From NCBI GenBank assembly GCA_026392455.1, contig JAPLCB010000009.1, forward strand, positions 372,001 through 436,000: DNA of 64,000 bases, read 5' to 3'. The stretch's first letter is position 1; each line of letters begins with the position of its first letter. The notes below the pieces were generated by a model. It was not told the origin of the DNA. It did no database searches and saw only the letters and a program-made list of their open reading frames with translations. This document shows positions 29,848-49,207 of this stretch, one piece after another. A program made the translations under genes and the position numbers. This stretch comes from Propionibacteriales bacterium (lineage in GTDB: Bacteria; Actinomycetota; Actinomycetes; Propionibacteriales; Nocardioidaceae).

Positions 29848-32800
29848 TCAGCCGAAGGTCGTGTCTGCGTGCGCCTCGGCGACGATCAGCTCGACACCCG
29901 GGGTCAGGCCCAGCAGGTTGTTCGCGACGGTGACGACGACCCGGACCGCCCGGACCGTCAGACCGGTGTGGCCGCTCGCCGTGCAGGTGTGGCTGACCGC
30001 AGCGCCGTTGTCGCAGAACTGCTCGTTGAGGACGATGAAGCCGATCCCCGGCAGCGCGATCGTGGTGTTGGGCGCCGGCGTTCCCGCGATCGGGATCCCG
30101 AGGACCGAGAGACCTACCAACGAGGTGCCGGTGTCCTTCGACGTCGACCCGCTCGCACTGGCCGCCGAGTTGACCTCGGAACGGATCAACGTCGCCGTGG
30201 CCACGCAGTCCCTGACGTAGCTCAGCACGCAGGCGGGCTTGGTGCCGTCACCGGTCACCTCGGCCCAGCTCCGAGCCGTGCTCCCGGAGGCGGTGAACGC
30301 GCCGGCCGAGCTGCTGTCGGCGACCTTGGCGTTGACGACCACCCCGGTCGAGGGGATCACTGCCTGCGCGACGTGCTCGGTCTCGACCCCGCCCAGCGGC
30401 GAGACCTGGGCGTAGCCCTGGATCAGGTCGGCCAGGATCGGCCCGGTGTACAGCCGCGCCGTGTAGGCGTGACCGCTGACCGACTGGTTCTTCGCCCCCG
30501 CGCACAGGAAGGTCTTCGGGAACTCGCTGTGCGAGGTGGCCTGGGCGACGTAGATCTCCGCAGCCTGGACCCCGAGCAGGAGACCGGTGATCTTCACGTG
30601 GATCATCGCCACGCTCTGGTCAGCGGTGTACTTCTGACCCGAGAGACCCGACGAACCGGTCCGCTCGTTGATCGCCACGTAGCTGTTCGGACCGAAGACG
30701 GCCTTGTTCAGCGGGATGGTGGTGGTCTGGTTGAGGTCCACCGGGACGGCGACCCCCGCAACCCTGAGGCTCTGGATCGTCGAGCCGGCGGTGCTGACGG
30801 CCGCATAGGTGCCGTTCGCCATCGTGGTGGCGACCGCGCGGACCGTCCCGGTCTCGACCGTGCACAGCCCGCCCACCGGGATCAGGCAGACCCCCGCGAC
30901 CTCACTGGTGGTGGTGGTGCGGGCCTCGGCCGGAGCCGGGGTCACCACGCTCGCGCTCGTCGCCGTCAGCACGCCGGCCCTGGCCAGCGAACCGTTGCTG
31001 GGCAGCTTGACGCTCAGCAGCGAGTCGCTCCCGGTCGACGGCCCGCCCGGGCCGCTCTGGCTGCTCGACGCCCGGCTGAGGGCCAGGGTGTTGTTGTTGG
31101 TGAACAGCCCCCCGACGATCGGGCCGACCAGGTCGAGCAGGCCCGACGTCCGGATCGACAGACCGACCGCAGACCCGTTCGACTTCGCGTTGGCGGTGTC
31201 CGGCTGCGGGACCACGTTGGTGGTGACCGTGTTCGACGACGTCGTGGTGACCTCGTTGGCCCGGATCTGGGCGACGTTCGTGATCACGCAGGTCTGGTTG
31301 CTGGTCACCCGGACCACGAGCTGGACGGTGCCGGTGCCGCCAGCCGGAGCGACCGCCCCGACGTTCCAGGTCACCAGGTTGCCGGGCGTGGTGCAGGCCG
31401 GCGCGCAGGACACGAACCCGGTACCGGCCGGGAGCTGGTCGGTGACGACAGTCCCGAGGGACTCCGCCGTTCCGGAGTTGGTGTAGGTCAGCGTGTAGGT
31501 GATCGTCTGGTCACCGAACCCGGTGGTGTCGATCGTGTCGCTCTTGACCAGGCCGAGCTTCGCGGCAGCGGCGACGCAGACCGTGGCCGCAGCGTTGGCA
31601 CCGCCACCCAGCACCACCGAGTTGCTGACCGGGTAGGCGCCGACCAGGCACCCGCCCTGACCCGACGGTCCGGTGAAGGTGGCCGGCATGGTCGCCGCGT
31701 AGGTGATCTTCTGGCTGGCACCGGGCTCGATCACCCCGGTGGTGCAGGTGAGCTTGCCGCCGGCCTTGGTGCACTCGGTCGGGACCGTGATGGTGGCGTC
31801 GAGGCGGTTGTCGTAGTCGTCGACGAACGTCGAGGTCCCCGCCACCGAACCGGTGTTCGTCACCGTGACCGTGTAGGTGACCTGCTGCCCCGGGTCCGCC
31901 GTGGTGTCGTCGGCGACCTTGGTCGCGGTGAACTTCGCGGCAGCGGCCACGCAGACCGTCTGGGAGGCCTTCACCTCGTCGCCGATGGTGACCTCGTTCG
32001 CCACCGAGTACTGACCCGGCGCACAGGGGTCGACGCCGGAGTCACCCGAGTACGTCAGCGGCAGCACCGCGTCGTACTCGAACTTCGTGGAACCGCCGGC
32101 CAGGATCTTCCCGGTGTCGCAGCTGAGCGTGCCGGCAGCCTTGGTGCAGCCCGCAGGGACGGTCGGGTCGAGACGGTTGTCGTAGTCGTCGACGATGGTG
32201 GTCGAGCCCGCTGCCGCCCCCGTGTTGGTCACGGTGACGGTGTAGTGCACGGTGTCACCCGGCTCTGCCTGCGGCTTGTCGACCGTCTTGTCGACCACGA
32301 ACTTCGGCGCCGCGGTGACGCAGACGTCCTGGGCCGCCGACGCTCCGCTGGTGCTGGTGACCGAGTTCGCGATCCGGTACTGGACCGGGGTGCAGTCGCC
32401 ACCACCGGGAGTGCCGTCGAACGTCGTCGGCACCTGGGCCGAGTAGGTGAACGGCTGCGAGGTACCAGCGTTCAGGACCTCGGTGGAGCACTGCAGCGTC
32501 TTGTCGACCTTGGCACAGCCGGCCGGGACGCTGATGGTCGCGTCCAGGCTGTCGTCGTAGTCGTCGGTGAAGGTCGTCGACCCGGAGGCGTCGCCGGTGT
32601 TCTTGACGGTGACCGTGTAGGTCACGGTCGCGCCCGGGTCCACCACCGCAGTGTCGACGGTCTTGGCAACGGTGAACTTCGGCGCTGCCGGGACGCAGAG
32701 CGTGACGTCGTCCGAGGGCCCGCCGGTGACGTTGACCGCGTTGGCAACCGGGAAGGTACCGTCGGGGCAGTCGGCACCGCCGGAGTCACCGGTGAAGGAG

Positions 32801-35800
32801 GCCGGGATCTTCGCCGAGTAGGTGAAGGTCTGGTCCTTGCCGGACTCGATCACCTCGGTGGTGCAGGTGAACTGGCCGTTGCCCTGGACGCAGCCTGCCG
32901 GCAGCGTGACGTCGGTCAGGGTGTCGGTGTAGTCGTCGACGAAGGTGGTTGCGGGAGCCGCGGCCGGGCCGGAGTTCGTGACGACGACCGTGTAGCTGAC
33001 GGTGTCACCGGTCTTCACCGAGGTCGGCTGGGCCGTCTTGTCGATGCTCAGGTCAGGCGCAGCTGCGACGCAGACCCGGGCCGTGGCGGACGGTCCGTCG
33101 GACTCGAGCGTCGCGGTGTTCTCGAACCCGTAGCTGCCGTCGGCGCAGCCGTTCGTGCCGGAGACCGCCGGGTACGTCGCCGGCAGCTTCGCGGTGTAGA
33201 CGAAGTCCTGGCTCGCACCAGCGGCCAGCACGTCGGTGGTGCAGGTGAACGAGCCGGTGTTGTCGGTGCACCCGTCGGGCAGGGTCGGACTCAACCGGTC
33301 GTTGTAGTCGTCGTCGAAGGACGTCCCACCGGCGGCGTTGCCGAGGTTGGTGACCGTGACGGTGTACTCCACGGTCTGGCCGGGCTCACCGGACTCGTCG
33401 TCGACCGACTTGGTGATCGAGAACGCCGCGTCCGCGTCGACGCAGACCACGACGGTCGCGCTGGCACCGTTGGCGAGGGTCACGGTGTTCGGGACCCGGT
33501 ACTGGTCCGCCGGGCAGCCGACGCCGCCGGTCGGCCCGTCGAACGAGCTGGGGAGCCTGCCGGTGTAGGTGAAGGTCGCGCTCTGACCGGCGTTCAACGG
33601 GCCGGTCTCGCACCTGAGGCTCGTGCTGGGGCCCTGGGGGCACGGAGCCCCGACGACGCCGAGGCGCGGGTCGTAGTCGTCGACGGCCATGATCCTGCCG
33701 GTGGCATTGCCCTCGTTCGTCACCACGACGGTGTAGGTGACGTCCTGACCGGGGGTGGTCGAGGTCGTGTCCGCGGTCTTGGTCACCGTGAACCTCGGAG
33801 CAGCAGCGACGCAGACGATGACCGCAGCGTCGGGATAGCCGTTGACGCTGTTGATCACCGCGTAGCGGCCCGGGTCGCAGAGACGGCCGCCGCTGGTACC
33901 GGTGAAGGTCTCCGGCATGTCCGCGGCGTAGGTGAAGGTCTGGGTGCCGCCCGCGTTGATCGTGCCCGTGCTGCAGCTCAGGTTCCCGTCCGCGACCGAG
34001 CAGGAGCCGCCGGAGCCGGAGATGTCGACGGCGGACAGGGTCAGGCGGTCGTCGTAGTCGTCGACGAAGTCCGTCGTGCCGGCCGCGGTGCCGGTGTTCG
34101 TCACGGTGACGGTGTAGGTGACGGTGTCACCAGCGTCGACCAGGGTCTCGTCCGCGGTCTTGGTGACCGTGTAGGCCGGCGCAGCGGCGACGCAGACGTC
34201 GTCGGAGACGGTCGGACCGTTCCTCAGCATGGCCGAGTTCGCCAGCAGGTAGCGGTCGTCGTCGCAGGTGCCCAGGCCCGGCGTGCCGGTGAAGTTCGCC
34301 GGCGCCGTCAGGTCGAAGGTGAAGACCTTGGAGACGCCCGGGTCGAGGTCGCCGGTGCTGCAGGTGAACGTCCCGTTGGCCAGGAGGCAGCCCGCAACCG
34401 TGACCCCGGTCAGGTCGTACTGGCTGTCCGGGGTGTCGGTGAAGGTGGTGGCCCCGGTCGCGCTGCCGATGTTCTTGACCGTCACCGTGTACCTGACCGG
34501 TGCACCGACCTCGACCAGCTTGCTGTCCGCGGCCTTGGTGATCGTGTACTCCGGACCGGCGGCCACGCAGACGGTGACCTTGTCGACGAGGTCGTTCGCG
34601 AGCGTTGCCTTGTTGATGATCGCGAACGCGGGCGGGGTGCAGGCAGCACTGTCCGGGCTACCGACGAACGTCATCGGGACGACGCCGCTGTAGGTGAAGC
34701 TCTGCGACTCGCCGGCGTTGATGGTGCCAGTGGTGCAGCTGAACGCCGTGTTCGCGGCGTCGACCGTGCAGCCGGCCGGAGCCGTCACGGTTGCGGTGGC
34801 GTCGTAGTCGTCGGTGAAGGACGTCGACCCGGCGGCCGTGCCGGTGTTCGTGACCACGACCGTGTAGCTGACCGTGCTCCCCGGATTGACCTGGTACCTG
34901 TCCGCGGTCTTCTTGACCGTGAAGGTTGCCGCCGCCGCGACGCAGACGTCCTGGCTGGCCGTCGAACCACCAGCCGTGACCGTGTTCGCGACCTGGTACT
35001 CGCCCGGGTCGCAGTCCCCGCCGCCGCTCTCACCGGTGAAGGTGGCCGGCATCTGCGCGGTGTAGGTGAAGCTCTGGCTGGCCCCGGGCTCGATGACGCC
35101 CGTCGGGCAGTTGCTGAAGACCCGGGCTCCGACCGCTCCGCTGGGGGCGCAGGTGTTGCCGGACGGGGTCGAGACCGCGCTGGACGGCGACAACCGGCTG
35201 TCCGGGGTGTCGCTGAAGGTGGTCGAACCACCGGCGGTGCCGGTGTTCGTGACCTTGATCGTGTAGGTCACGCTCTCGCCGGGCAGGACGTTGGCGTCGT
35301 CCACGGACTTGGCGACCGAGAAGGCCGGTGCCGCGCTGACGCAGACCTGGGCGCCGGTCGAGGCACCGCCGTCGAGCGTCACGTCGTTGGCGATGCCGTA
35401 GGCCCCGGGAGCACAGGTGCCCGTGGGGGCCGTGCTGAGGAACGTTGCCGGCATCACCGCGGTGTAGGTGAAAACCTGGTTGTCACCGGACGCGATGTCG
35501 CCGGTGGTGCAGCTGAGCTTGCCGTCGGCCTTGGTGCAGCCGTTCGGGACAGTCGGGTTCAACCGGTTGTCGTAGTCGTCGACGAACCCGGTCGAGCCCG
35601 ACGCCGGGCCGGTGTTGGTGACGGTGACCGTGTAGGTCACGGTGGAGCCGACACCTACGGTCTGCGGGGTGGCCGTCTTGGTGATCGTGAACGTCGGAGC
35701 CGCCGCAACGCAGACGAGCACGCTGTCGGACGAGCCGCTCGGGATCCCGGCAGTGTTCTTGACCGCGTACTGGCCCGGCGCACAGTCGCCACCGCCCGGA

Positions 35801-38796
35801 CCGGTGAAGGTCGCCGGCAGGACCGCTGAGTAGCTGAACGTCTCCGAGCCGTTCGCCAGGATCGTCCCGGTGGTGCAGGACAGCTTGCCGTCGGCCTTGG
35901 TGCAGCCGGTCGGTGCGGTGATCGAGGAGTCCAGGCGGTTGTCGAAGTCGTCGACGAAGGTGGTCCCGCCAGCAGCGGAGCCGGTGTTGCTGACCGTGAT
36001 CGTGTAGGTCACCGTGTCACCGGGAGCGGCCGACTCGTCGGACACCGACTTGTCGAGGACGAACCTCGGGGCGGCGGTGACACAGACGTCCGCGGTGGCC
36101 GGAGGCAGGGTGCCCAGGACCGCGCTGTTGGCGATCCGGTACTGCGACGACGTGCAGGTCCCCCCGCCGGTGACGCCGCTGTAGGTCGCCGGGACCCGCG
36201 CCGAGTAGGTGAAGGTCTGCTGCGCGCCGGCCGGGATCAGGTCGGTGGTGCAGTTCAGCACACCGGCTCCGGGCGAGCAGGTGCCACCGCTCGGCAGGAT
36301 CGTGACCCCACCGAGGGTGAGGCGGTTGTCGTGGTCGTCGACGAAGGACGTGGACCCGGAAGCGGCGCCGGTGTTCTTGACGGTGACGGTGTAGGTGACC
36401 AGGTCGGAGGGCAACGCGTCCTTGGGCGAGACCGTCTTGCTGATCTCGTACTTCGGCGCGGCCGCGACGCAGACGACGCCCAACCCGGACAGGTTGCTGT
36501 TGGCGAGGGTCGCGGTGTTGCGGACCGGGTAGGTGCCGGTCGCGCAGCCCGATCCTCCGGAGGTCGCACCGAACGTGGCCGGCATCGCTGCGGTGTAGGT
36601 GAAGGTCGCGGTGGCGCCGACCACGAGCTTGCCGGTCGCACAGGTGAACTTCCCAGCGCCCGGGGTGCACGACGAACCAGCGTTCGGCGAGGTCGGCAGG
36701 GTCGGGGTGATCCTGCTGTCGTAGACGTCCACGAACGACGTGGACCCGCTCGCCATGCCGGTGTTCTTGACAGCCACCGTGTAGGTGACGACCTGGCCGG
36801 GGACGGCGGTGGCCGGGGTCGCGGCCTTGGTGATCTCGTACGTCGCCACCGCGCCGACACAGACCGTCTTGGTCGACGTGCTGAGTCCGATCGTGGCGGT
36901 GTTGGTGATCGCGTAGGTGTCGTCGGCACACCCGTTGGTCGCCGGGGTGCCGTCGAAGGTGCTCGGCATCGTCGCGGTGTAGACGATGTTCGTGCTGGCG
37001 CCGGCCAGGATCGGGCCGGTGGTGCAGGTGAACGAGCCGTTCGGGCCAGACGCGCAACCGGGAGGCAGGGTGCCGAGGGTGATGCCGGCCGCCGGGGTGT
37101 CGGTGACCGACGTGGTTCCGGAGGCGGTGCCGGTGTTGGTCACCTTCAGGGTGTAGGTGACGACGTCACCCGGGTTCGCGACGCTGACGTTGGCCGACTT
37201 GACCACGGTGAAGGCGGGAGCTGCCTGGACGCAGACGTTGACGGTCGCGGACGGGCCGCCGGTGATGGTGACCTTGTTGGCGACCTGGTAGCCGCCCGTG
37301 CAGGCGGTGCCGCCGTCGAAGGACGCCGGCATCGTGGCGTCGTACGTGAAGGTCTGGCTGGCACCGGCCGGGATCGAACCCGTGGTGCAGGCCATCGAAC
37401 CGAGGGCGGGCGCCGAGCAGGAGCCGCCGGTCCCCGAGATCGTCACGCTGCCGGGAGTGACGGCGTAGGTGTCGGTGAAGCTGGTGGAGCCGGCGGCATT
37501 CCCGTTGTTCGTGACGGTGATCGCGTAGCTGACGACCTGGCCGGTGGTGGCGGTGGTGGTGCTGGCGGTCTTGCTGATCGCGAACTGGGCGGCAGCACTG
37601 ACGCAGACCAGGGCCGTGGCCGAGGTGTTCGTGGTGTTGTTCGGGTTCGCCGCGAGGGTGGCGGTGTTGCTGACCGGGTAGGTCCCGCCCGTACATCCGC
37701 CGGTGTTCACGCCGCCGGAGAAGGAGGCCGGCATGTTCGCGGTGTAGGTGAAGACCTGGGTGCCGCCGTTGCCGGCGATCGGGTTCGTCGTACAGGTCAT
37801 CGCCCCGGAGCCCTGGGTACAGCCGGACGGGGTCGAGACGTTGGTCAGGTTGTTGTTGTAGTCGTCGGTGAAGGTCGTCGTCCCGGGCTGGCCACCGGTG
37901 TTCGTGACCGTGACGGTGTAGGTGATCTGACCGCCAGCGCTGGCCGTGGTGGCACTCGCGGTCTTGGTGATCGTGTACGCCGCCGGCGGTACGGGCGCAA
38001 CCGCGCTTCCGCCCTGGATCGAGTTCGCGGTCGCCCCGGTGGAAGCGCCGTCCACCTTGTCGAGCTTGAACGCGTAGGGGCCACCGGAGACCGAGGACGC
38101 ACCGAATCCGGCCCCCCACGACCGGGGCAGGGTGGCCGGAGCGCCCACCGCGAGGTGACCCCCGAAGAGCAGCACTGCCGTCTTCGCCGTGCCGGGAGTC
38201 GTGTTCCGGAACCGGACGGTCACCGTGACCAGGTCGTCGCCCGCGGCAGCAGAGTCGTGGGACGGCGCAGTGTCGCTGGTGAGGTCGGCGCCGTACATCG
38301 TCCACTGACGGGCGGCGTCGGGCAGGTCGTGGTCCCGCGGCGCTGTGGAGATCCCGGGACCGGCCGGCGGGACGCTCAGCGTCGGGTCCTCGGTCATCTG
38401 CAAGGTGTCCGGCACGCCCGCGCAGAGGGCAGCGGCCAACCCCTGGCAGGGCAGGGCAGCGACCGACGTCCTGTTCCAGGTCGCCAGCGAGTCGTACGCG
38501 TGGATGCTGCCCTTGCGATCCTGGTAGGTGAAGGTCAAGGAGTGCTCGAGGCTGTCCGCCGGCAGGTTGATCAGCGCTCGCTGCGGAACCACGTCGTCCT
38601 CGGTGTAGTGCGAGTTGCTCGACTGCAGCGACCCGTTGACCCAGCCACCGACGCAACCGAGGGCTGTGCCGGCGCCGTTCTCGCACTGGGAGAACCCACC
38701 CACGGTGGCCCCGGCTGCACTGGCCGGCGCTTGCGCGGCGATGCTCAACCCGGTCGCAGCGAGCGCGGTGACCAGCAGGAGACGGAAGGTACGCAT
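29848..38796 (-). CDS. Giant secreted surface protein with 18 DUF11-type repeats
   Basis: 2982 residues. Sec signal peptide (cleavage near 'ASAAG', about residue 28), a unique N-terminal region (about 30-270), 18 tandem DUF11/SdrD-B-like domains of about 125 residues (272-2528), and a C-terminal region of about 450 residues that resembles choice-of-anchor P-type sequences and ends 'ELIVAEAHADTTFG'. Each repeat opens with a 'T(V/I)TK-GxxVTYTVTVTNTG' pattern, includes a 'DDYDNRL' motif and closes with 'VCVxAAP'. I see no LPXTG motif, hydrophobic anchor or basic tail. Probably a stalk-like adhesin or envelope layer protein. A sortase is encoded 210 bp upstream on the same strand. Confidence 0.92.
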   Translation of the reverse strand: MRTFRLLLVTALAATGLSIAAQAPASAAGATVGGFSQCENGAGTALGCVGGWVNGSLQSSNSHYTEDDVVPQRALINLPADSLEHSLTFTYQDRKGSIHAYDSLATWNRTSVAALPCQGLAAALCAGVPDTLQMTEDPTLSVPPAGPGISTAPRDHDLPDAARQWTMYGADLTSDTAPSHDSAAAGDDLVTVTVRFRNTTPGTAKTAVLLFGGHLAVGAPATLPRSWGAGFGASSVSGGPYAFKLDKVDGASTGATANSIQGGSAVAPVPPAAYTITKTASATTASAGGQITYTVTVTNTGGQPGTTTFTDDYNNNLTNVSTPSGCTQGSGAMTCTTNPIAGNGGTQVFTYTANMPASFSGGVNTGGCTGGTYPVSNTATLAANPNNTTNTSATALVCVSAAAQFAISKTASTTTATTGQVVSYAITVTNNGNAAGSTSFTDTYAVTPGSVTISGTGGSCSAPALGSMACTTGSIPAGASQTFTYDATMPASFDGGTACTGGYQVANKVTITGGPSATVNVCVQAAPAFTVVKSANVSVANPGDVVTYTLKVTNTGTASGTTSVTDTPAAGITLGTLPPGCASGPNGSFTCTTGPILAGASTNIVYTATMPSTFDGTPATNGCADDTYAITNTATIGLSTSTKTVCVGAVATYEITKAATPATAVPGQVVTYTVAVKNTGMASGSTSFVDVYDSRITPTLPTSPNAGSSCTPGAGKFTCATGKLVVGATATFTYTAAMPATFGATSGGSGCATGTYPVRNTATLANSNLSGLGVVCVAAAPKYEISKTVSPKDALPSDLVTYTVTVKNTGAASGSTSFVDDHDNRLTLGGVTILPSGGTCSPGAGVLNCTTDLIPAGAQQTFTYSARVPATYSGVTGGGTCTSSQYRIANSAVLGTLPPATADVCVTAAPRFVLDKSVSDESAAPGDTVTYTITVSNTGSAAGGTTFVDDFDNRLDSSITAPTGCTKADGKLSCTTGTILANGSETFSYSAVLPATFTGPGGGDCAPGQYAVKNTAGIPSGSSDSVLVCVAAAPTFTITKTATPQTVGVGSTVTYTVTVTNTGPASGSTGFVDDYDNRLNPTVPNGCTKADGKLSCTTGDIASGDNQVFTYTAVMPATFLSTAPTGTCAPGAYGIANDVTLDGGASTGAQVCVSAAPAFSVAKSVDDANVLPGESVTYTIKVTNTGTAGGSTTFSDTPDSRLSPSSAVSTPSGNTCAPSGAVGARVFSNCPTGVIEPGASQSFTYTAQMPATFTGESGGGDCDPGEYQVANTVTAGGSTASQDVCVAAAATFTVKKTADRYQVNPGSTVSYTVVVTNTGTAAGSTSFTDDYDATATVTAPAGCTVDAANTAFSCTTGTINAGESQSFTYSGVVPMTFVGSPDSAACTPPAFAIINKATLANDLVDKVTVCVAAGPEYTITKAADSKLVEVGAPVRYTVTVKNIGSATGATTFTDTPDSQYDLTGVTVAGCLLANGTFTCSTGDLDPGVSKVFTFDLTAPANFTGTPGLGTCDDDRYLLANSAMLRNGPTVSDDVCVAAAPAYTVTKTADETLVDAGDTVTYTVTVTNTGTAAGTTDFVDDYDDRLTLSAVDISGSGGSCSVADGNLSCSTGTINAGGTQTFTYAADMPETFTGTSGGRLCDPGRYAVINSVNGYPDAAVIVCVAAAPRFTVTKTADTTSTTPGQDVTYTVVVTNEGNATGRIMAVDDYDPRLGVVGAPCPQGPSTSLRCETGPLNAGQSATFTYTGRLPSSFDGPTGGVGCPADQYRVPNTVTLANGASATVVVCVDADAAFSITKSVDDESGEPGQTVEYTVTVTNLGNAAGGTSFDDDYNDRLSPTLPDGCTDNTGSFTCTTDVLAAGASQDFVYTAKLPATYPAVSGTNGCADGSYGFENTATLESDGPSATARVCVAAAPDLSIDKTAQPTSVKTGDTVSYTVVVTNSGPAAAPATTFVDDYTDTLTDVTLPAGCVQGNGQFTCTTEVIESGKDQTFTYSAKIPASFTGDSGGADCPDGTFPVANAVNVTGGPSDDVTLCVPAAPKFTVAKTVDTAVVDPGATVTYTVTVKNTGDASGSTTFTDDYDDSLDATISVPAGCAKVDKTLQCSTEVLNAGTSQPFTYSAQVPTTFDGTPGGGDCTPVQYRIANSVTSTSGASAAQDVCVTAAPKFVVDKTVDKPQAEPGDTVHYTVTVTNTGAAAGSTTIVDDYDNRLDPTVPAGCTKAAGTLSCDTGKILAGGSTKFEYDAVLPLTYSGDSGVDPCAPGQYSVANEVTIGDEVKASQTVCVAAAAKFTATKVADDTTADPGQQVTYTVTVTNTGSVAGTSTFVDDYDNRLDATITVPTECTKAGGKLTCTTGVIEPGASQKITYAATMPATFTGPSGQGGCLVGAYPVSNSVVLGGGANAAATVCVAAAAKLGLVKSDTIDTTGFGDQTITYTLTYTNSGTAESLGTVVTDQLPAGTGFVSCAPACTTPGNLVTWNVGAVAPAGGTGTVQLVVRVTSNQTCVITNVAQIRANEVTTTSSNTVTTNVVPQPDTANAKSNGSAVGLSIRTSGLLDLVGPIVGGLFTNNNTLALSRASSSQSGPGGPSTGSDSLLSVKLPSNGSLARAGVLTATSASVVTPAPAEARTTTTSEVAGVCLIPVGGLCTVETGTVRAVATTMANGTYAAVSTAGSTIQSLRVAGVAVPVDLNQTTTIPLNKAVFGPNSYVAINERTGSSGLSGQKYTADQSVAMIHVKITGLLLGVQAAEIYVAQATSHSEFPKTFLCAGAKNQSVSGHAYTARLYTGPILADLIQGYAQVSPLGGVETEHVAQAVIPSTGVVVNAKVADSSSAGAFTASGSTARSWAEVTGDGTKPACVLSYVRDCVATATLIRSEVNSAASASGSTSKDTGTSLVGLSVLGIPIAGTPAPNTTIALPGIGFIVLNEQFCDNGAAVSHTCTASGHTGLTVRAVRVVVTVANNLLGLTPGVELIVAEAHADTTFG
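31210..37983 (-). repeat. Tandem DUF11-type repeat tract, 18 units
   Basis: About 6.8 kb of in-frame repeats inside the giant gene, near 376 bp per unit. Units 1-17 share the same ordered motifs (opening TK-GxxVTYTV, middle VDDYDNRL or TDTPDSR, pair of Cys, closing VCVxAAP); unit 18 is divergent ('LGLVKSDTIDTTGFGD'). DNA repetition of this kind can change copy number by recombination and is prone to assembly collapse. It also generates long shadow frames on the plus strand. Confidence 0.88.
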
Positions 38797-42060: not shown

Positions 42061-42870
42061 GTGAAGCAGAGTCGAATGATCTGCGCGATCACCGCCGGGG
42101 TGTTCTTGGCCGTCAGCACGACGACGGCAGTGTCGGCGGCGGAGCCCGGCCACCCGGACGGGACCTACTCCCTCGACTCGACCTCGGGGCACCTGCGCGG
42201 GTTCGTCGAGGGTGAGGACGGCGAATCGGGATACGCCGACACGCGGGATGCTCCGTTCCTGATCACCCAGACCTCGATCTCGGACGATCACACCCCGAGC
42301 GCCGAGATCTCTCGCAGCATCGATCTCGGGAACGGCTTGGCGCCGCAGCCGTGGACCGGGACGGGGCCAAAGCGAATCATCTACTCCAGTGCCGGAACGT
42401 ACACACCGAACGTCTCCTTGACTGACGGCGACGGCAACACCACGATCGTGCCCCTGCCGACGATCACAGTGAAGAGTGACGAGAAGGCCCCGGTCCTGCG
42501 CATCACCCGCCCGGCGCGCGTCCACAAGGTTGCAGCCTGGCGTCGGATTCGCGGAGGCGCCTACGACACCGGCATCGGTCTGGCCGATCGCGGCGTGACC
42601 GTTCGGGTCTGGGAGAAGCGGAACGGCACCTGGTACGGCTACAACTTCACGACCAAGCGGTGGGTGAAGGGCAAACGCACCTTCGCCGCTACGAGGTCCA
42701 TGCCGTTCAACAGCTACATCACGACCTCCTCAAAGGTTGCCGAGAACAGGTGGCACACCCCGTACATCCAGGGCCTCAAGCGCGGCTACCTGCACGTCGA
42801 AGCCATCGTGAACGATCGCATCCCCCTGCGCACCGAGACCCGGACCAGCGCCGACCTGCGCCGCTGGTAG
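42061..42870 (+). CDS. Secreted protein with PKD-like segment
   Basis: 269 residues from the GTG at 42061 (AGGGG 6 nt upstream). Sec signal peptide (about residues 1-26, 'AVSAAEPG'). The middle has a PKD-like pattern 'YSSAGTYTPNVSLTDGDGNT', and the C-terminal half is basic and rich in aromatic residues ('GTWYGYNFTTKRWVKGKRTF'). No catalytic motif is visible. Third-codon positions look less GC-rich than in the neighbours, suggesting possible transfer; this is qualitative. Function unknown; a wall-binding or adhesive protein is possible. Confidence 0.65.
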   Translation: MKQSRMICAITAGVFLAVSTTTAVSAAEPGHPDGTYSLDSTSGHLRGFVEGEDGESGYADTRDAPFLITQTSISDDHTPSAEISRSIDLGNGLAPQPWTGTGPKRIIYSSAGTYTPNVSLTDGDGNTTIVPLPTITVKSDEKAPVLRITRPARVHKVAAWRRIRGGAYDTGIGLADRGVTVRVWEKRNGTWYGYNFTTKRWVKGKRTFAATRSMPFNSYITTSSKVAENRWHTPYIQGLKRGYLHVEAIVNDRIPLRTETRTSADLRRW

Positions 42871-42984
42871 GCAGTTCGGTTTCAGGCCACTTCGAGGCCT
42901 CCGCCAGCTGGACGACCACGTACGACGCCCGCCGCGAGGGCGGTGGCGGCCATCTGGAACTCCGTCGCGACGAGGGGAATGAGA

Positions 42985-43000
42985 ATACCCCGGGGGGTGT
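42985..43000. promoter_or_regulatory. CsoR/CstR-type operator, upstream copy
   Basis: ATACCCCGGGGGGTGT, an AT-flanked C-run/G-run pseudopalindrome as bound by CsoR-family repressors (copper-CsoR, persulfide-CstR). It abuts the -35 hexamer TTGACC. Confidence 0.55.
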
Positions 43001-43030
43001 TTGACCAGAATGACAGATACCCCCTAGGGT
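43001..43030 (+). promoter_or_regulatory. Promoter of the MMPL/thiol-redox operon
   Basis: -35 TTGACC (43001-43006), 18-bp spacer, -10 TAGGGT (43025-43030), predicting a start near 43037 and ATG at 43063. The -10 lies inside the second CsoR-type site and the first site is just upstream, a classic repression layout. Confidence 0.6.
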
Positions 43031-43032
43031 AT
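43017..43032. promoter_or_regulatory. CsoR/CstR-type operator, copy over the -10
   Basis: ATACCCCCTAGGGTAT: arms ATACCC and GGGTAT with an inner CCTAGG. Center-to-center distance to the upstream copy is 32 bp, about three helical turns. Confidence 0.6.
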
Positions 43033-43062
43033 TCGAGTACCGGCCCGAAGAGAGAGAGAACC

Positions 43063-45228
43063 ATGACTGTCACCGACTCCCGTTCCACTGGCCCCGAGAC
43101 CGACCCGGAGATCGGGTTCTCCCCCGGCCCCCTCGGCAGGCTCGGCGTCTGGGTGACGCGTCACCGTCGGGTCACCGCCGCCGTCTGGCTGCTGCTGATC
43201 GTGGGACTGGGAATCTTCGCCCCGAAGGTCGAGACGCAGCTCTCCGGCGCCGGCTGGCAGGCCGACGGCTCGGACTCGGTCGCGGCACGGGACCTGGCCC
43301 AGGAGCACTTCGGCGGCAACGCCAGCTCGGCGATCCAGGTCGTCGTCCGCTCGACCGACGGGCCGGTGACCCAGGGGGTCGGGGCCGAGGTGCTGGCCCG
43401 CGCAACGGCCATCCTCCAGAAGGATCCGAGGATCGCTGAGGTCATCCAGCCGCAGCCCGGGGCCACTCTGAGCCAGGACCAGAAGACCGCCGTGCTGCTC
43501 GCCGGCGCCGGCGCCGACACCAACGAGATGGTGCGGGTCGCCGACGACCTGAAGGGACCGCTGCAGGACCTCTCCCGCGACGGCGTGAGCGTCAACCCCA
43601 CCGGAGCCTCGTTGCTGTGGTCGGACTTCAACGAAGCCAACCTGAGCGCGATGCTGAAGTCGGAGATGTTCTCCTGGCCCGTCACCCTGGCCATCCTGGT
43701 GCTCGCGTTCGGCGCACTCGTCGCTGCGGGGCTGCCCCTGCTGCTGACTCTGTCCGGACTGGTCGCCTCCGCCGGCTCGCTGGTGCTGATCAACCAGTTC
43801 GTCCCGGTCTCGATCTGGGCGATGAACTTCGCGATGATGTTCGCCCTCGCTCTCGGGATCGACTACGCGCTGTTCCTCGTCGTCCGGTTCCGCGCCGCCA
43901 GAATGGGGTCGCACGAGTCGCCCCGCCAGGCCATCGCCGAGACCATGGACACCGCCGGCAAGGCGGTGCTGCTCTCCGGAGCCACCGTGCTGATCTCGCT
44001 GTCCGCGGTGATGCTGGTGCCGTCGCCGTCGTTCCGGTCGATGGCCGGCGGCATCATGCTGGCCGTGCTCTTCGTCCTGGGGGCCACCCTGACGCTGCTG
44101 CCGCTGGTCCTGTTCAAGCTCGACGACCGGATCAACAAGTTCTCGCTCCCCTGGGTGCACCAGGGCGAGCACCGCTCCCCCACGTTCGCCGCCTGGGGAG
44201 AACGCCTCTGGAAGCGTCCGCTGGTCTGGGGCCTCGGCTCCCTGGTCGTGCTGGTCGCTCTTGCTGCTCCGATCTTCGGCCTGCACACGGCGATGCCCTC
44301 GATCAAGGTGCTGCCCGAGGACGCCTCGGCCCGGATCGGGTACGACATCGTCAAGGAGAGCTTCGGCGACGGAGCGCCGGGAACCCTCCAGATCGTCGTC
44401 AAGCAGTCCCAGGCGGCAGAAGCGGCCACGGTGATCGGGGCCGACCCCGGGATCTCCGGCACCATGCCCGCAGCGACCGCGAACGACGGCAGTGGACTCG
44501 CCCTCATCCAGGCGGTCCCGAAGGTCGACCCGAGCGACCCAGCGCTGGCGGCCACCGTCGACCGTCTGCGGGCGGATCTGCCCCCCTCGGCCCTGGTCGG
44601 CGGCGCGGCCGTGGAGAACCTGGACCTCAAGACCCAGCTCGACGCCTCGACCCCGCTGGTGATCGGCGTGATCCTGGCGCTCGGATTCCTGCTGCTGCTG
44701 GTCGCCCTGGGCGCCCCGCTGATCGCCCTGCTCGGCACCCTGGTGAGCCTGCTCTCCACTGCTGCGGCCTTCGGGGTCGCACGGTTGGTCTTCCAGGAAG
44801 GATGGGGCGCGGGCTTCTTCGGCTTCGAGTCCCAGGGATTCCTCGACGCGTGGGCACCGGTGTTCTTCTTCGCGATGATCTTCGCGATCGCGATGGACTA
44901 CACGGTCTTCCTGCTGGCCTCGGCCAAGGAGCACTACGAGCACAGCGGCGACCCTCGTGAGGCCATGATCGGCGCGGTCGCGCACTCGGGCCGGGTGATC
45001 TTCGCCGCCGGCGCGGTGATGGTGGCGGTGTTCTTCACCTTCGCCCTCTCCGGTCCGCTGCCGCCCAAGGAGATGGGAATCATCCTCGGCGTCGCGGTGC
45101 TGCTCGACGCGTTCCTGGTGCGCCTGGTGCTGCTGCCGGTCCTGCTCCGACTCACCGGCAAGGCAGCGTGGTGGGCCCCGCGCTGGCTCACCCGGGTCCT
45201 GCCGAACATCAAGTTCGCCCACAACTGA
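43063..45228 (+). CDS. MMPL-family RND transporter
   Basis: 721 residues from ATG 43063 (GAGAGAGAA upstream). Two MMPL blocks: an N-terminal helix (about 28-48), extracytoplasmic domain, five helices near 195-370, a second extracytoplasmic domain and five helices near 520-700. Family features 'MMFALALGIDYALFLVVRFR' and 'FAMIFAIAMDYTVFLLAS' carry the intramembrane Asp-Tyr relay. MMPL proteins export lipids or small molecules using the proton gradient. First gene of the CsoR/CstR-box operon, which links it to thiol or metal stress. Confidence 0.93.
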   Translation: MTVTDSRSTGPETDPEIGFSPGPLGRLGVWVTRHRRVTAAVWLLLIVGLGIFAPKVETQLSGAGWQADGSDSVAARDLAQEHFGGNASSAIQVVVRSTDGPVTQGVGAEVLARATAILQKDPRIAEVIQPQPGATLSQDQKTAVLLAGAGADTNEMVRVADDLKGPLQDLSRDGVSVNPTGASLLWSDFNEANLSAMLKSEMFSWPVTLAILVLAFGALVAAGLPLLLTLSGLVASAGSLVLINQFVPVSIWAMNFAMMFALALGIDYALFLVVRFRAARMGSHESPRQAIAETMDTAGKAVLLSGATVLISLSAVMLVPSPSFRSMAGGIMLAVLFVLGATLTLLPLVLFKLDDRINKFSLPWVHQGEHRSPTFAAWGERLWKRPLVWGLGSLVVLVALAAPIFGLHTAMPSIKVLPEDASARIGYDIVKESFGDGAPGTLQIVVKQSQAAEAATVIGADPGISGTMPAATANDGSGLALIQAVPKVDPSDPALAATVDRLRADLPPSALVGGAAVENLDLKTQLDASTPLVIGVILALGFLLLLVALGAPLIALLGTLVSLLSTAAAFGVARLVFQEGWGAGFFGFESQGFLDAWAPVFFFAMIFAIAMDYTVFLLASAKEHYEHSGDPREAMIGAVAHSGRVIFAAGAVMVAVFFTFALSGPLPPKEMGIILGVAVLLDAFLVRLVLLPVLLRLTGKAAWWAPRWLTRVLPNIKFAHN

Positions 45229-45262
45229 CCACTCACAGCTGACCCACGAAAGGAACACCACC

Positions 45263-45646
45263 ATGACCACCACCACCCACTCCCCGCACGGCAAGGACGT
45301 TCTGGCCGAGCTCTCACCACTGCACCGTGAGCTCCGCCGGGCCATCCCTGACGTCTACAAGGGCTTCGGCGAGCTGCACAAGGCAGCCTTCACGGCCGGT
45401 GAGCTCGACGTGAAGACCAAGGAGCTGATCGCGCTGGCGATCGGCGTGGTCGAGGGTTGCGACGGCTGCATCGCCTCGCACGCTCAGGGCGCAGCCCGGG
45501 CCGGGGCGTCGCGGCAGGAGGCGGCCGAGGCCATCGGCGTGACCTTCCTGATGAAGGGCGGCCCCGCCACCATCTACGGCCCGCGTGCGTACGACGCGTT
45601 CTGCGGCTTTGCCGAGGACACCGAGTCCGGCGCAGCGCCGGCCTGA
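45263..45646 (+). CDS. Carboxymuconolactone decarboxylase/AhpD-like protein
   Basis: 127 residues: the AhpD-type CxxC at Cys66-Cys69 ('GCDGCIASH') with the following His73. AhpD-like proteins act as disulfide reductases or peroxidase partners in thiol stress defence. AAAGGA precedes the ATG. It is the second gene of the operon, 34 bp after the MMPL gene. Confidence 0.88.
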   Translation: MTTTTHSPHGKDVLAELSPLHRELRRAIPDVYKGFGELHKAAFTAGELDVKTKELIALAIGVVEGCDGCIASHAQGAARAGASRQEAAEAIGVTFLMKGGPATIYGPRAYDAFCGFAEDTESGAAPA

Positions 45647-45658
45647 GAGGAGCCACCC

Positions 45659-45850
45659 ATGTGCAGAGCAGTGCGTTGTCGGACCTGCGACAAGACCACC
45701 TGGTCGGGCTGCGGCGCCCACGTGGCCCAGGTCAAGGCCCGCGTCCCCGCGGACCAGTGGTGCACCGGCCACCAGAGCACGACCGCAGACACCGGCACGA
45801 CCACGTCCTGGTTGCGCCGCATCATCGGAAGCAACGGAGGGGAACGATGA
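45659..45850 (+). CDS. 63-residue Cys-rich protein
   Basis: Begins 'MCRAVRCRTCDKTTWSGCG', with Cys at 2, 7, 10, 18 and 36 ('QWCTGH'). This C-x4-C-x2-C-x7-C arrangement is suitable for metal or persulfide chemistry and resembles small proteins next to DUF2892/CsoR loci (from memory, not verified). GAGGAG lies upstream of the ATG. Its TGA overlaps the next ATG (ATGA at 45847-45850). Confidence 0.75.
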   Translation: MCRAVRCRTCDKTTWSGCGAHVAQVKARVPADQWCTGHQSTTADTGTTTSWLRRIIGSNGGER

Positions 45851-46092
45851 ACATCGACCGCGCCGTCCTGGCACTGGCCGGGACCATGATCCTGATCAGC
45901 GTGGCACTGACCGCCCTGGTCTCGACCTGGTGGTTGCTGCTGACCACCTTCGTCGGCCTCAACCTGCTTCAGTCCAGCGTCACCGGCTTCTGCCCGGCCG
46001 CGGTGATCTTCGCCAAGCTCGGCCTCAGCTCCGGGTGCGCGTTCAGCGGCGCACCGACGGCGGTTTCGGTCGACGCCCGACCCGGTTCCTGA
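45847..46092 (+). CDS. DUF2892 (YgaP-type) membrane protein
   Basis: 81 residues: 'MNIDRAVLALAGTMILISVA' with a second helix, then 'NLLQSSVTGFCPAAVIFAKLGL' split by the conserved GFCP motif of DUF2892. These domains are membrane partners of rhodaneses in persulfide-response loci (CstR type). It overlaps the upstream gene by 4 bp and has 3 bp to the next gene. Confidence 0.88.
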   Translation: MNIDRAVLALAGTMILISVALTALVSTWWLLLTTFVGLNLLQSSVTGFCPAAVIFAKLGLSSGCAFSGAPTAVSVDARPGS

Positions 46093-46095
46093 CCC

Positions 46096-46827
46096 GTGTC
46101 GACCTCGAACCGATCGGGACGCGTCAGGTCGGCGACCATCATCGCCGAGCGACGCCGCCAGGAGAAGCGCCGCCGGCTGCTGATCCAGCTCGGCATCGGT
46201 CTCGTCGTGGTCGTCGCCGTGCTCGGCACCACGATCGCGGTGCTGAAGTCCCAGGACGACACGACGCCGGCCGCGACGCCGCCGAACCTGACCGCCACGG
46301 GCGGGGTGGTGCTCGGTAACGCGTCGGCACCGGTGACGGTGACGGTGGTCGAGGACTTCGGCTGTCCGCACTGCAAGGTCTTCGAGGAGGAAGCCGGCTC
46401 GCTCCTCGCGGGCTACGCGACAGGAACCGACGTCAAGGTCGAGTACCGCGGGATCGCCTTCCTCGACCGAGCATTCACGACCAACTACTCCAGTCGCGCC
46501 CTGAACGCATCGGTCTGCGTCGCAGCGACGTCGACGCCCGAGGTCTGGAAGAAGTTCCACGACGCCCTGTTCACCGAGCAGCCTGCCGAGGGTTCCAAGG
46601 GCCTCGATTCCGGCGCACTGGTCTCCCGGGCCGCTGCTGCCGGCGCCACGGTCGGGGACTGCATCACCAGCGGCACCTACCTCGACTGGGTGAAGGCCCA
46701 GACCGATTCGACCCTGGGCCACGGTGGCGTCGAGGGAACACCGACCGTCTTCGTCAACGACGTCCTGGTCGAGCGGCCGAGCGCTGCGACCGTGGCGGCC
46801 GCCGTCGCGGGGGCGTCGACCTCATGA
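46096..46827 (+). CDS. Membrane-anchored DsbA-like thiol-disulfide oxidoreductase
   Basis: 243 residues: signal-anchor helix (about 29-50) and an extracytoplasmic DsbA/thioredoxin-4 fold with active site CPHC in 'EDFGCPHCKVFEEE', cis-Pro motif 'GTPTVFVNDV'. Introduces or isomerises disulfides in exported proteins. GTG start at 46096. Overlaps the VKOR gene by 4 bp (ATGA), fitting an oxidant/oxidase pair. Confidence 0.92.
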   Translation: MSTSNRSGRVRSATIIAERRRQEKRRRLLIQLGIGLVVVVAVLGTTIAVLKSQDDTTPAATPPNLTATGGVVLGNASAPVTVTVVEDFGCPHCKVFEEEAGSLLAGYATGTDVKVEYRGIAFLDRAFTTNYSSRALNASVCVAATSTPEVWKKFHDALFTEQPAEGSKGLDSGALVSRAAAAGATVGDCITSGTYLDWVKAQTDSTLGHGGVEGTPTVFVNDVLVERPSAATVAAAVAGASTS

Positions 46828-47435
46828 CGGCGGAGATCGACGAGGCTCCTGCGGCGTACGAGCCAACCCGGCTGGGCGGGATCTCGCTCGCGCTCTGGTC
46901 CTCGCTGGGTCTGGTCGCCGCGTTCTTCCTCTCGGTCGACAAGCTCAAGATGCTCGAGGACCCGGACTTCGTCCCGTCGTGCAACTTCAACCCGGTCCTC
47001 TCCTGCGGTTCGGTCATCACGACCGATCAAGCCTCCGCGTTCGGGTTCCCCAATCCGTTCCTCGGCCTGGTCGGGTTCGCCGTCATCGCCACCCTCGGCG
47101 TCCTGCTCGCAGCGCAGGTGGTGCTCCCCCGCTGGGTGCTCGTCGGCGCGGCAGCAGGCTCGTTCCTCGGCTTCGGTTTTGTGCACTGGCTCGCGTTCCA
47201 GAGCCTGTACACCATCGGCGCGCTGTGCCCGTGGTGCCTGGTGGTGTGGGCCATCTCGCCGCTGATCTGGCTCTGGCCCACGTTCTGGGCGGCCGCCTCG
47301 TCACCCAGGAGCTCGGTCCGCACGATCGGCCGGGCGCTGTGGGACTGGCGCTACCTCGCGGTCGCATCCTGGTACCTGCTGGTCGTGGTCCTGATCCTGA
47401 TCCGCTTCTGGTCCTACTGGCGCACGCTCCTGTGA
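46824..47435 (+). CDS. Vitamin K epoxide reductase (VKOR)-family protein
   Basis: 203 residues, five hydrophobic segments; active site CPWC ('GALCPWCLVVWA') and the loop cysteines 'SCNFNPVLSC' of bacterial VKOR. It oxidises DsbA and passes electrons to quinone, as in mycobacteria. It is the partner of the DsbA-like protein just upstream (4-bp overlap). Confidence 0.93.
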   Translation: MTAEIDEAPAAYEPTRLGGISLALWSSLGLVAAFFLSVDKLKMLEDPDFVPSCNFNPVLSCGSVITTDQASAFGFPNPFLGLVGFAVIATLGVLLAAQVVLPRWVLVGAAAGSFLGFGFVHWLAFQSLYTIGALCPWCLVVWAISPLIWLWPTFWAAASSPRSSVRTIGRALWDWRYLAVASWYLLVVVLILIRFWSYWRTLL

Positions 47436-47482
47436 ACCGCACCGGGACGCGACCTGGACCGGATCGAACCTATGCTCGCGGT

Positions 47483-49207
47483 ATGGACGATTCCTCGACC
47501 ACCGATCCCGCCGACACCCCGCTGGTGCGTCGCATCCGCGAGTCGGTGATCGGCGACGATCACGTGATGCAGGGACCGTTCGGACCTCGACGCGTGACCT
47601 ACGCCGACTACACCGCTTCGGGACGGGCGCTGGGGTTCATCGAGGACTTCATCCGCGACGAGGTCCTGCCCAGCTACGCGAACACCCACACCGAGTCGAG
47701 CGGGACCGGGCTGCAGACCACGCGGCTGCGCTCGGACGCACGATCGATCATCTCCGACGCCGTGGGCGGCGACGACGAGACGGTGGTGATCTTTGCCGGG
47801 TCGGGCTGCACCGGGGCGATCGACAAGCTGATCGGCATCCTCGGCCTCCGGCTGCCCTCGAACCTCGAGGACCAGTACCACTTCGCTGCGTCGATACCCG
47901 CCGATCAGCGACCGGTCGTCTTCACCGGACCCTACGAGCACCACTCGAACGAGATCCCCTGGCGGGAATCGATCGCCGACCTGGTCCCCATCCCGGCCGA
48001 CGCCGACGGCCACATCGACCTGGCCGAGCTCGAGACGCAGCTGCAGAAGTACGCCGGCCGAGCACTGAAGATCGGGACCTTCTCAGCAGCCAGCAACGTC
48101 ACCGGGATCCTGAGCGACACCGCCGCGATCTCCTCGATGCTGCACCGGTACGGCGCGCTGTCGTTCTGGGACTTCGCAGCGGCCGGGCCGTACGTCGACA
48201 TCGAGATGTACGGGCCCGACCTCGAGGACCCGCTCTGCTACAAGGACGCGATCTTCTTGAGTCCGCACAAGTTCATCGGCGGGCCGAGCACCCCCGGTGT
48301 CCTGGTGGTCAGGCGCGAGCTGCTGACCAACCGGGTGCCCGACGTACCCGGCGGCGGCACCGTTGCCTACGTCAACCCCGACGAGCACCGGTACCTGACC
48401 GATCCCGCCCAGCGCGAGGAGGGCGGCACCCCGGCGATCGTGGAATCGATCCGCGCCGGCCTGGTCTTCCACCTCAAGGAGTCCGTCGGCATCCAGGTGA
48501 TCCGCGAACGCGAGGAGCACTTCCTGAAGCGGGCCTTGGCCGCTTGGGCCGCGGAACCCACCATGGAGATCCTCGGGAACCTGGACGCAGAGCGGCTCTC
48601 GATCGTCTCGTTCGTGATCCGGACGCCCACCGGCAAGTACCTGCACCACAACTTCGTGGTCTCCTTGCTCAACGACCTGTTCGGGATCCAGTCGCGCGGC
48701 GGCTGCTCGTGCGCCGGACCGTACGGACACCGGCTGCTCGGGATCGACATCGAGCGGTCCCACGAGTTCGAGCGGGAGATCACCCGTGGCTGCGAGGGGA
48801 TCAAGCCGGGATGGGTCCGGATCAGCTTCAACTACTTCATCTCCGAGGCGGTCTTCGACTACATCGTCGAGGCGGTCAAGCTGGTGGCCCGGGACGGCTG
48901 GCGGATGCTCGGTGAGTACCGGTTCGATCCCGCTACCGGGATCTGGATCCACCGAGAGGGACTGGTCGAGCCACCACTGCGCCTCAGCCAGGTGAGCTAC
49001 TCCCCCGAGGGCCAGATGCAGCACCCGCGAGGCGCGCAGACCGCCCCGGAGACTGCCCTCGCCGAGCACCTCGCAGACGGCGCCCGCCTGCTCGCCGAGG
49101 TGGTACCACCCGAGCTGGGCGGTGCGGGCACCCAGGTCTCGGCCGACTTCGAGCACCTGCGCTGGTTCGACCTACCCCCGGAGTCCATCGCGTCCTGCAA
49201 CCACTGA
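47483..49207 (+). CDS. Class V aminotransferase/cysteine desulfurase-like enzyme
   Basis: 574 residues, long for the family (about 400), with a C-terminal extension of about 120 residues. PLP-fold landmarks: 'VIFAGSGCTGAIDKLI', 'EHHSNEIPWRE', 'LSFWDFAAAGPYVDI' and the Schiff-base Lys in 'FLSPHKFIGGPSTPGVLVVR'. A Cys-containing 'RGGCSCAGPYG' loop occupies the position of the catalytic Cys of desulfurases. Ending near the sulfur/redox operon, 48 bp after VKOR, it may supply persulfide. A TATGCT element 7 nt before the ATG suggests a possible leaderless start. Substrate unproven. Confidence 0.85.
   Translation: MDDSSTTDPADTPLVRRIRESVIGDDHVMQGPFGPRRVTYADYTASGRALGFIEDFIRDEVLPSYANTHTESSGTGLQTTRLRSDARSIISDAVGGDDETVVIFAGSGCTGAIDKLIGILGLRLPSNLEDQYHFAASIPADQRPVVFTGPYEHHSNEIPWRESIADLVPIPADADGHIDLAELETQLQKYAGRALKIGTFSAASNVTGILSDTAAISSMLHRYGALSFWDFAAAGPYVDIEMYGPDLEDPLCYKDAIFLSPHKFIGGPSTPGVLVVRRELLTNRVPDVPGGGTVAYVNPDEHRYLTDPAQREEGGTPAIVESIRAGLVFHLKESVGIQVIREREEHFLKRALAAWAAEPTMEILGNLDAERLSIVSFVIRTPTGKYLHHNFVVSLLNDLFGIQSRGGCSCAGPYGHRLLGIDIERSHEFEREITRGCEGIKPGWVRISFNYFISEAVFDYIVEAVKLVARDGWRMLGEYRFDPATGIWIHREGLVEPPLRLSQVSYSPEGQMQHPRGAQTAPETALAEHLADGARLLAEVVPPELGGAGTQVSADFEHLRWFDLPPESIASCNH

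Follow-up and report, generated by a model that had tools for sequence, protein, structure and literature searches.

This study concerns a run of six genes (43063-47435, plus strand) and the promoter region before it (42985-43032) in a 64,000-nucleotide stretch, hereafter the window, of contig JAPLCB010000009.1 (positions 372,001 to 436,000, assembly GCA_026392455.1) from a Propionibacteriales bacterium of the Nocardioidaceae. We consider it probable that these genes form an operon repressed by CstR and induced by sulfane sulfur, in which a cysteine-poor, MmpL3-like protein of the resistance-nodulation-division (RND) type, the MMPL protein, constitutes a conserved export or envelope arm. The run encodes, in order, the MMPL protein, an AhpD-like carboxymuconolactone decarboxylase (CMD) protein, a small Cys-rich protein, a YgaP-type transmembrane (YgaP-TM) protein, a DsbA-like thioredoxin and VKOR, an order that the earlier sequence-only reading of this DNA had given correctly, its DUF2892 protein being the YgaP-like one (PF11127). 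The gene content, the type of the repressor, the operators, their conservation and the linkage between genes reported below are direct results of computation.

A five-protein MMPL alignment was scanned against the GTDB species genomes and the best 80 of 281 relatives were used, with locus content counted at E <= 1e-5 unless stated otherwise. CstR was found in 64 of these 80 loci (53 of the 65 with complete flanks) and in none of 20 other MMPL loci taken as controls, eight of which come from the window genome, six from genome G028, five from G413 and one from G394. The CstR-MMPL linkage spans at least seven families: Nocardioidaceae, Geodermatophilaceae, Nocardiaceae, Gordoniaceae, Tsukamurellaceae, Thermomonosporaceae and Streptomycetaceae. 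Judged by this comparison, MMPL is a conserved and usual partner of CstR, which reverses the initial impression that it was an unusual member of such a gene set. The same 80 loci hold the Cys-rich protein in 47 cases, DUF302 in 41, YgaP-TM in 34, thioredoxin in seven, AhpD in 19 (21 at E <= 1e-3), TauE in 19 and a persulfide dioxygenase (PDO)-like protein in 23, with a match over 900 bases (PDO-rhodanese) in 20. Of the 20 loci with PDO-rhodanese, 19 also hold TauE and 19 also hold CstR; in 16 of the 80 loci MMPL is preceded on its own strand by the long match, and in nine of these TauE stands between the two. Family searches with example proteins returned Lactamase_B plus Rhodanese for the former and TauE for the latter, and from the Lactamase_B-Rhodanese architecture we infer that the former is a persulfide dioxygenase. 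Two MMPL-bearing contigs are probably mis-binned or mislabelled (the pair of cases L168 and L173): the MMPL of one labelled Bifidobacterium breve is almost identical to that of a Solirubrobacteraceae metagenome-assembled genome, and the MMPL of one labelled Acidobacteria is close to an Acidimicrobiaceae one.

The presence of a CsoR-family repressor gene in the genome had been set as a check beforehand, and the window genome (G000; 3.55 Mb, 11 contigs) holds two, one of the C-G-C type on contig C3 and one of the C-H-C type on contig C9. The C3 repressor matches PF02583 (CsoR/DUF156) at 81.9 bits against a cut-off of 22.8 and is of the CstR type, having two cysteines (35 and 64) and no copper-ligand histidine. 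Its gene is the last of a thioredoxin-DUF302-cstR operon, and upstream of this operon stands ACACCCCCTGGGGTAT, a site of the 16-bp class with one mismatch to ATACC-N6-GGTAT; a degenerate ATAC-N8-GTAT lies exactly 32 bp further upstream, as measured by eye. The CsoR/CstR-type control suggested from the window alone has thus found its candidate, a C-G-C CstR whose own operon carries an operator of the same 16-bp class.

In the window itself, two 16-bp inverted repeats, ATACCCCGGGGGGTGT (42985-43000) and ATACCCCCTAGGGTAT (43017-43032), both listed on the plus strand, have a start-to-start distance of 32 bp, which confirms the pair of CsoR-family-like sites described before. The left operator has one mismatch to TACCC-N4-GGGTA, and the right one matches this motif exactly over its 14-bp core and is also an exact fit to the ATACC-N6-GGTAT consensus of Streptomyces coelicolor ScCsoR. 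When the window promoter was aligned with those of seven chosen relatives having class A operators (defined below), the invariant columns were in the two operator blocks, the left one being largely invariant, together with a T that immediately follows the left block, and the remaining spacer and the flanks had diverged. The promoter-like TTGACC-18-TAGGGT (43001-43030, plus strand) places TTGACC at 43001-43006 and TAGGGT, its -10 element, at 43025-43030 within the right operator; the -35-like element reads TTGACT in the two nearest relatives of the promoter alignment. Its letters and spacing are as the sequence-only reading had them, but a generic sigma-70 scan lists no promoter at 43001-43030, and we therefore regard it as plausible but weak; a strict scan of 42860-47600 found neither a promoter nor a terminator.

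The exact motif TACCC-N4-GGGTA occurs once in the 3.55-Mb genome, at the right window site. With up to one mismatch, two sites stand against an expectation of 0.75 in 64 kb, and two are likewise reached by 21 of 100 shuffled windows, so that single sites are only moderately unusual on this genome alone; site pairs 25-45 bp apart appeared in none of 60 first-order Markov windows, which makes the close pair unusual. A genome scan with the 16-mer at up to two mismatches returned two sites only, the right one of the window and that on C3 before the thioredoxin-DUF302-cstR operon; good 16-bp sites of the CstR type stand at two promoters of the genome, one being that of the window. At three mismatches, six further places appeared: one is the left window site and two are CsoR-type sites, and three that lie inside polA-, rpsB- and acetyl-CoA-synthetase-like genes (by eye) were taken as chance matches.

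The operator arrangement recurs across the MMPL clade. In a footprint region of 170 bp before MMPL plus 40 bp, for which two of the 80 loci were dropped for too little upstream DNA, at least one site was found in 57 of 78 loci compared to 163 of 4273 control windows, and 42 of the 78 loci had a double site spaced by 31-38 bp, compared to 10 of 4273. The operators fall into two classes, class A being ATACCC-N4-GGGTAT and class B being of the kind (A/T)(A/T)CCCCC-N2-GGGGG(A/T)(A/T), and the class goes together with residue 21 of CstR: in the MMPL set, Gln accompanies class A in 19 of 19 cases and His accompanies class B in 26 of 27, and in a second set residue and class agree in 26 of 26, this set including the window's own genome (L025) and a genome (L022) taken to coincide with L131 of the first. 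When a single rule was applied throughout, the CstR type went with the operator class at every one of the classifiable loci (81 of 81). Rows in which only one trait or neither could be assigned were left out, 9 of 90 for CstR and 24 of 81 for MMPL. On the MMPL tree, each trait changes three times and all 57 rows with both traits agree. By these comparisons, the CstR half of the sequence-only interpretation is strongly supported.

AhpD offers a second view of the same association. In a search of 394 genomes of the class, 42 matched at E <= 1e-20; the 42 AhpD loci compared comprise 41 of 43 matches (the window's own and that of G066 being excluded) and one more from another search. CstR was present in 25 of these 42 loci, 20 of them having it within 1.5 kb. 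A site scoring at least 11/12 stood upstream of AhpD in 21 of the 42, compared to 5 of 1228 control windows. AhpD and PDO seldom share an MMPL locus, with one locus in common between the 21 AhpD and 20 PDO loci of the 80 (Fisher p 0.017, with kinship ignored), and in the window's family PDO was present in none of the 10 AhpD-bearing genomes, with 16 PDO genomes by hand tally among the matches listed. Class-wide, 18 of the 42 AhpD genomes also have PDO (p 0.40), which amounts to no exclusion. Because both coexist in this way, we rejected AhpD as a general replacement of PDO and retain their mutual exclusion only as a family-level hint.

Several observations weigh against a CstR-controlled sulfane-sulfur operon. 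The cstR gene of this strain is not adjacent to the MMPL operon, and the tested PDO-rhodanese protein finds matches in this genome at the domain level only, so that the strongest sulfur marker is missing here. CstR is absent from the fetched stretch in 16 of the 80 MMPL loci, which were kept in the counts, and from 17 of the 42 AhpD loci; 21 of the 78 footprint loci have no site just upstream of MMPL. Where PDO comes first, only 8 of 16 loci have a site scoring 11/12 or better in the 450 bp preceding PDO, and this half of the PDO-first loci without a strong operator led us to lower our confidence slightly. The operator consensus was itself derived from these data once the sequences had been seen. 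The match between operator and repressor reduces to a single change when traced on the CstR tree, and the MMPL tree yields only two to three independent pairs, which is not significant.

As to the mechanism, we infer how the promoter is repressed and how sulfur induces it, what chemistry each protein performs and what MMPL carries. CstR is made from the other promoter of this kind, that of the thioredoxin-DUF302-cstR operon on C3, and most likely sits on both window operators, where it would block the promoter lying between and inside them. Persulfide, the likely signal, or polysulfide would then modify the Cys35/Cys64 pair, upon which CstR would leave the DNA. The derepressed operon would supply the MmpL3-like RND protein, the CxxC AhpD-like protein, the small Cys-rich protein, probably metal-binding, and the YgaP-type membrane protein. 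Thioredoxin and the AhpD-like protein most likely act on persulfides of proteins and of low-molecular-weight compounds by reducing them or handing them on. MMPL, for its part, would clear the inner membrane of a hydrophobic sulfane-sulfur species, a thiol adduct or a damaged lipid. In this strain, DsbA and VKOR would probably be transcribed by read-through, adding envelope disulfide capacity.

The MMPL protein (43063-45228, plus strand; 721 aa, PF03176) contains no cysteine, and its predicted structure (pLDDT 85.1, pTM 0.83) has an MmpL3-like fold. MmpL3, the mycobacterial trehalose monomycolate exporter, is its nearest relative in the PDB both by sequence and by fold, with a TM-score of about 0.85 against MmpL3 structures, a similar core length and Asp-Tyr pairs in both halves that align with those of MmpL3 and are invariant in 35 aligned sequences. 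In MmpL3, these pairs have a proton-relay role. The window clade differs from MmpL3 in its low identity (22-24%), in its location in CstR loci and in its low cysteine count, the matched parts of the 80 relatives having none in 69 cases and one in 11; against the equivalog model for MmpL3 orthologues, the window protein scores 166.3 bits, below the cut-off of 1400. We regard the near-absence of cysteine as a signature of this clade as suggestive only, because 5 of the 20 control MMPL proteins likewise have none.

What this protein carries admits two accounts, both compatible with control by CstR. One is that it remodels envelope lipids under sulfur or redox stress as an MmpL3-like transporter and exports no sulfur compound, to which we give somewhat less than an even chance: the nearest fold and sequence are those of MmpL3-type lipid transporters, and, as seen by eye, acyl-CoA-ligase-like genes occur in 5 and acyl-CoA-dehydrogenase-like genes in 4 of 44 clustered records, but lipid genes are not among the partners that recur most strongly, namely CstR, DUF302, the Cys-rich protein, PDO-rhodanese and TauE. 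The other, which we put forward only tentatively, is that the proteins of this Cys-poor, MmpL3-like clade are RND exporters dedicated to reactive sulfur species, forming the membrane arm of actinobacterial sulfane-sulfur defence beside PDO-TauE or, in some lineages, instead of it. Candidate cargo for such an exporter might be elemental sulfur, polysulfanes or mycothiol persulfide or polysulfide; mycothiol persulfide, a sugar-linked thiol, might be accommodated by an MmpL3-type pocket.

The sequence-only reading had left the stress as thiol/persulfide or copper, and of these the thiol/persulfide part stands by association while the copper part does not. A copper-stress operon under the CsoR paralogue, in which MMPL and the thiol proteins repair copper damage, seems to us quite unlikely. 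Such a repressor does exist in the genome: the C9 protein has the C-H-C copper triad, and the operator directly upstream of its gene, ATACCCCCTAGGGGTAT (L001 1440-1456), resembles those of the window; moreover, a heavy-metal P-type ATPase-like protein was seen by eye in 5 of 44 clustered records (L063, L064, L067, L069 and L084). Yet both sites of the CsoR type are 17 bp long, one base longer than the 16-bp class found here, the regulator whose operon holds the matching 16-bp site is the C-G-C one and has no C-H-C copper site, and PDO-rhodanese and TauE recur in the MMPL loci. Among 91 CsoR-family rows collected at related loci, which include at least two duplicates, both cysteines are present in 89 and the copper histidine in none. 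Copper control was rejected on regulator type and operator length. The second copy of ATACCCCCTAGGGGTAT lies on contig C4, minus strand (L007 1500-1516), near OsmC-like and DUF4396-like genes as judged by eye; CsoR and CstR sites of this one genome differ by a single extra base (17 compared to 16 bp).

We turn to the last two genes of the run, which encode a DsbA-like thioredoxin with a CPHC motif (46096-46827, plus strand; PF13462) and a VKOR with CPWC (46824-47435, plus strand). A CxxC thioredoxin of this kind adjoining a CxxC VKOR fits an oxidative folding pair, and one could imagine the whole run as a single unit for envelope disulfide stress with DsbA-VKOR as its core and MMPL and AhpD as accessories. 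The first of the five junctions of the run, between MMPL and AhpD, measures 34 bp, and at each of the other four the genes either overlap or stand no more than 12 bp apart; from the YgaP gene onward the genes overlap or are 3 bp apart, and this VKOR is the only one found in the genome. We nevertheless think this very unlikely and rejected DsbA-VKOR as the core, since VKOR occurs in none of the 80 related MMPL loci; DsbA-like proteins occur in 4 of the 80, with weak 25-35% matches only. Of six genus mates tested, two have VKOR, sited beside other genes. By eye, the DsbA-VKOR pairs of genus mates stand beside a cation-diffusion (CDF-like) gene in L097 and a CopC-like gene in L099, and with such different neighbours the pair seems to occur in varied neighbourhoods. 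Because of the 0 of 80, DsbA-VKOR, as judged by comparison, is part of the gene run here and not of the conserved module; the sequence-only reading had included the pair in the system, to which it is physically joined as a local addition.

Finally, that the operators are chance matches in a GC-rich promoter is hardly credible: although single sites are not rare in shuffled windows, as noted above, position, spacing and sequence are conserved across genera, and the double-site counts against control windows contradict it.

The AhpD-like CMD protein (45263-45646, plus strand) carries EGCDGCIASH (CxxCxxxH), a motif kept in five of five aligned AhpD-like proteins; it matches PF02627 above the cut-off and TIGR00778 at 54.2 bits (cut-off 27.8), falls below the cut-off of the AhpD subfamily model TIGR00777 (18.6 against 191.95 bits), and has 5dik AhpD as its nearest PDB entry. 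The Cys-rich protein (45659-45850, plus strand; 63 aa) has the pattern MC-x4-C-x2-C-x7-C-x2-H-x13-C. In an alignment of 36 of its 48 relatives plus the window protein, 12 relatives being left out, C2, C7, C10, C18, H21 and C35 are kept in 37 of 37, and because of this invariance the protein probably binds metal. No Pfam or NCBIfam family exceeded its cut-off for this protein, and its predicted structure, of low confidence (pLDDT 72, pTM 0.37), gave no fold match at E <= 0.001. The family recurs in CstR/PDO/MMPL loci, and L116 has a second copy beside PDO and TauE. The YgaP-like transmembrane protein is encoded at 45847-46092 on the plus strand. Elsewhere in the window, a 2982-aa frame on the minus strand (29848-38796) with many 'TYTVTVTNTG...' repeats looks by eye like a repetitive surface protein.

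In the context of known systems, the CstR of Staphylococcus aureus is a persulfide-sensing two-Cys CsoR-family repressor of sulfur genes, in these respects like the window's, whose targets include rhodanese- and PDO-type enzymes, SQR and a TauE-type exporter; unlike in the window, we know of no MMPL in its regulon. S. coelicolor ScCsoR is another close system: according to the accessible part of that report, it binds ATACC-N6-GGTAT at two sites before pdo with an affinity lowered by polysulfide, and its circuit resembles the present one in having a two-Cys CsoR-like repressor and a 16-bp operator in two copies in the pdo promoter (PMC7533328). On this precedent we propose the release of CstR by sulfane sulfur. 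The ScCsoR targets described there are PDO, a rhodanese and a sulfite transporter, and that part of the report names no MMPL, AhpD, Cys-rich or YgaP-TM target (PMC7533328), while the window genome has only domain-level matches to PDO-rhodanese. An Arthrobacter plasmid SUL module, in the portion of the source available, similarly combines a CsoR-family regulator, a putative sulfur dioxygenase, two rhodaneses, TauE, DUF302 and a small hypothetical protein, but its further transporter is of the MFS type and MMPL is placed in a separate efflux module (PMC6305408). Thermus thermophilus TTHA1953, as far as the accessible text describes it, is likewise a repressor of the CsoR family whose sulfur promoters lie at a distance from it, a thioredoxin gene following one of them, but it controls Sox genes through a 20-bp operator (PMC10318464). 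Full-text literature searches, whose coverage mostly excludes subscription journals, gave, among the papers listed, no description of an MMPL arm of a CstR regulon.

Sulfane-sulfur defence is generally viewed as a set of enzymes (PDO, rhodanese and SQR) accompanied by a sulfite exporter. An RND protein of the lipid type that is conserved and tied to a repressor of the CstR kind may represent a missing membrane arm of this defence. The substrates of MMPL proteins are often unknown, and one MMPL clade would gain a testable physiological trigger. The Gln21 and His21 repressor types with their two operator classes would likewise provide a ready question of specificity.

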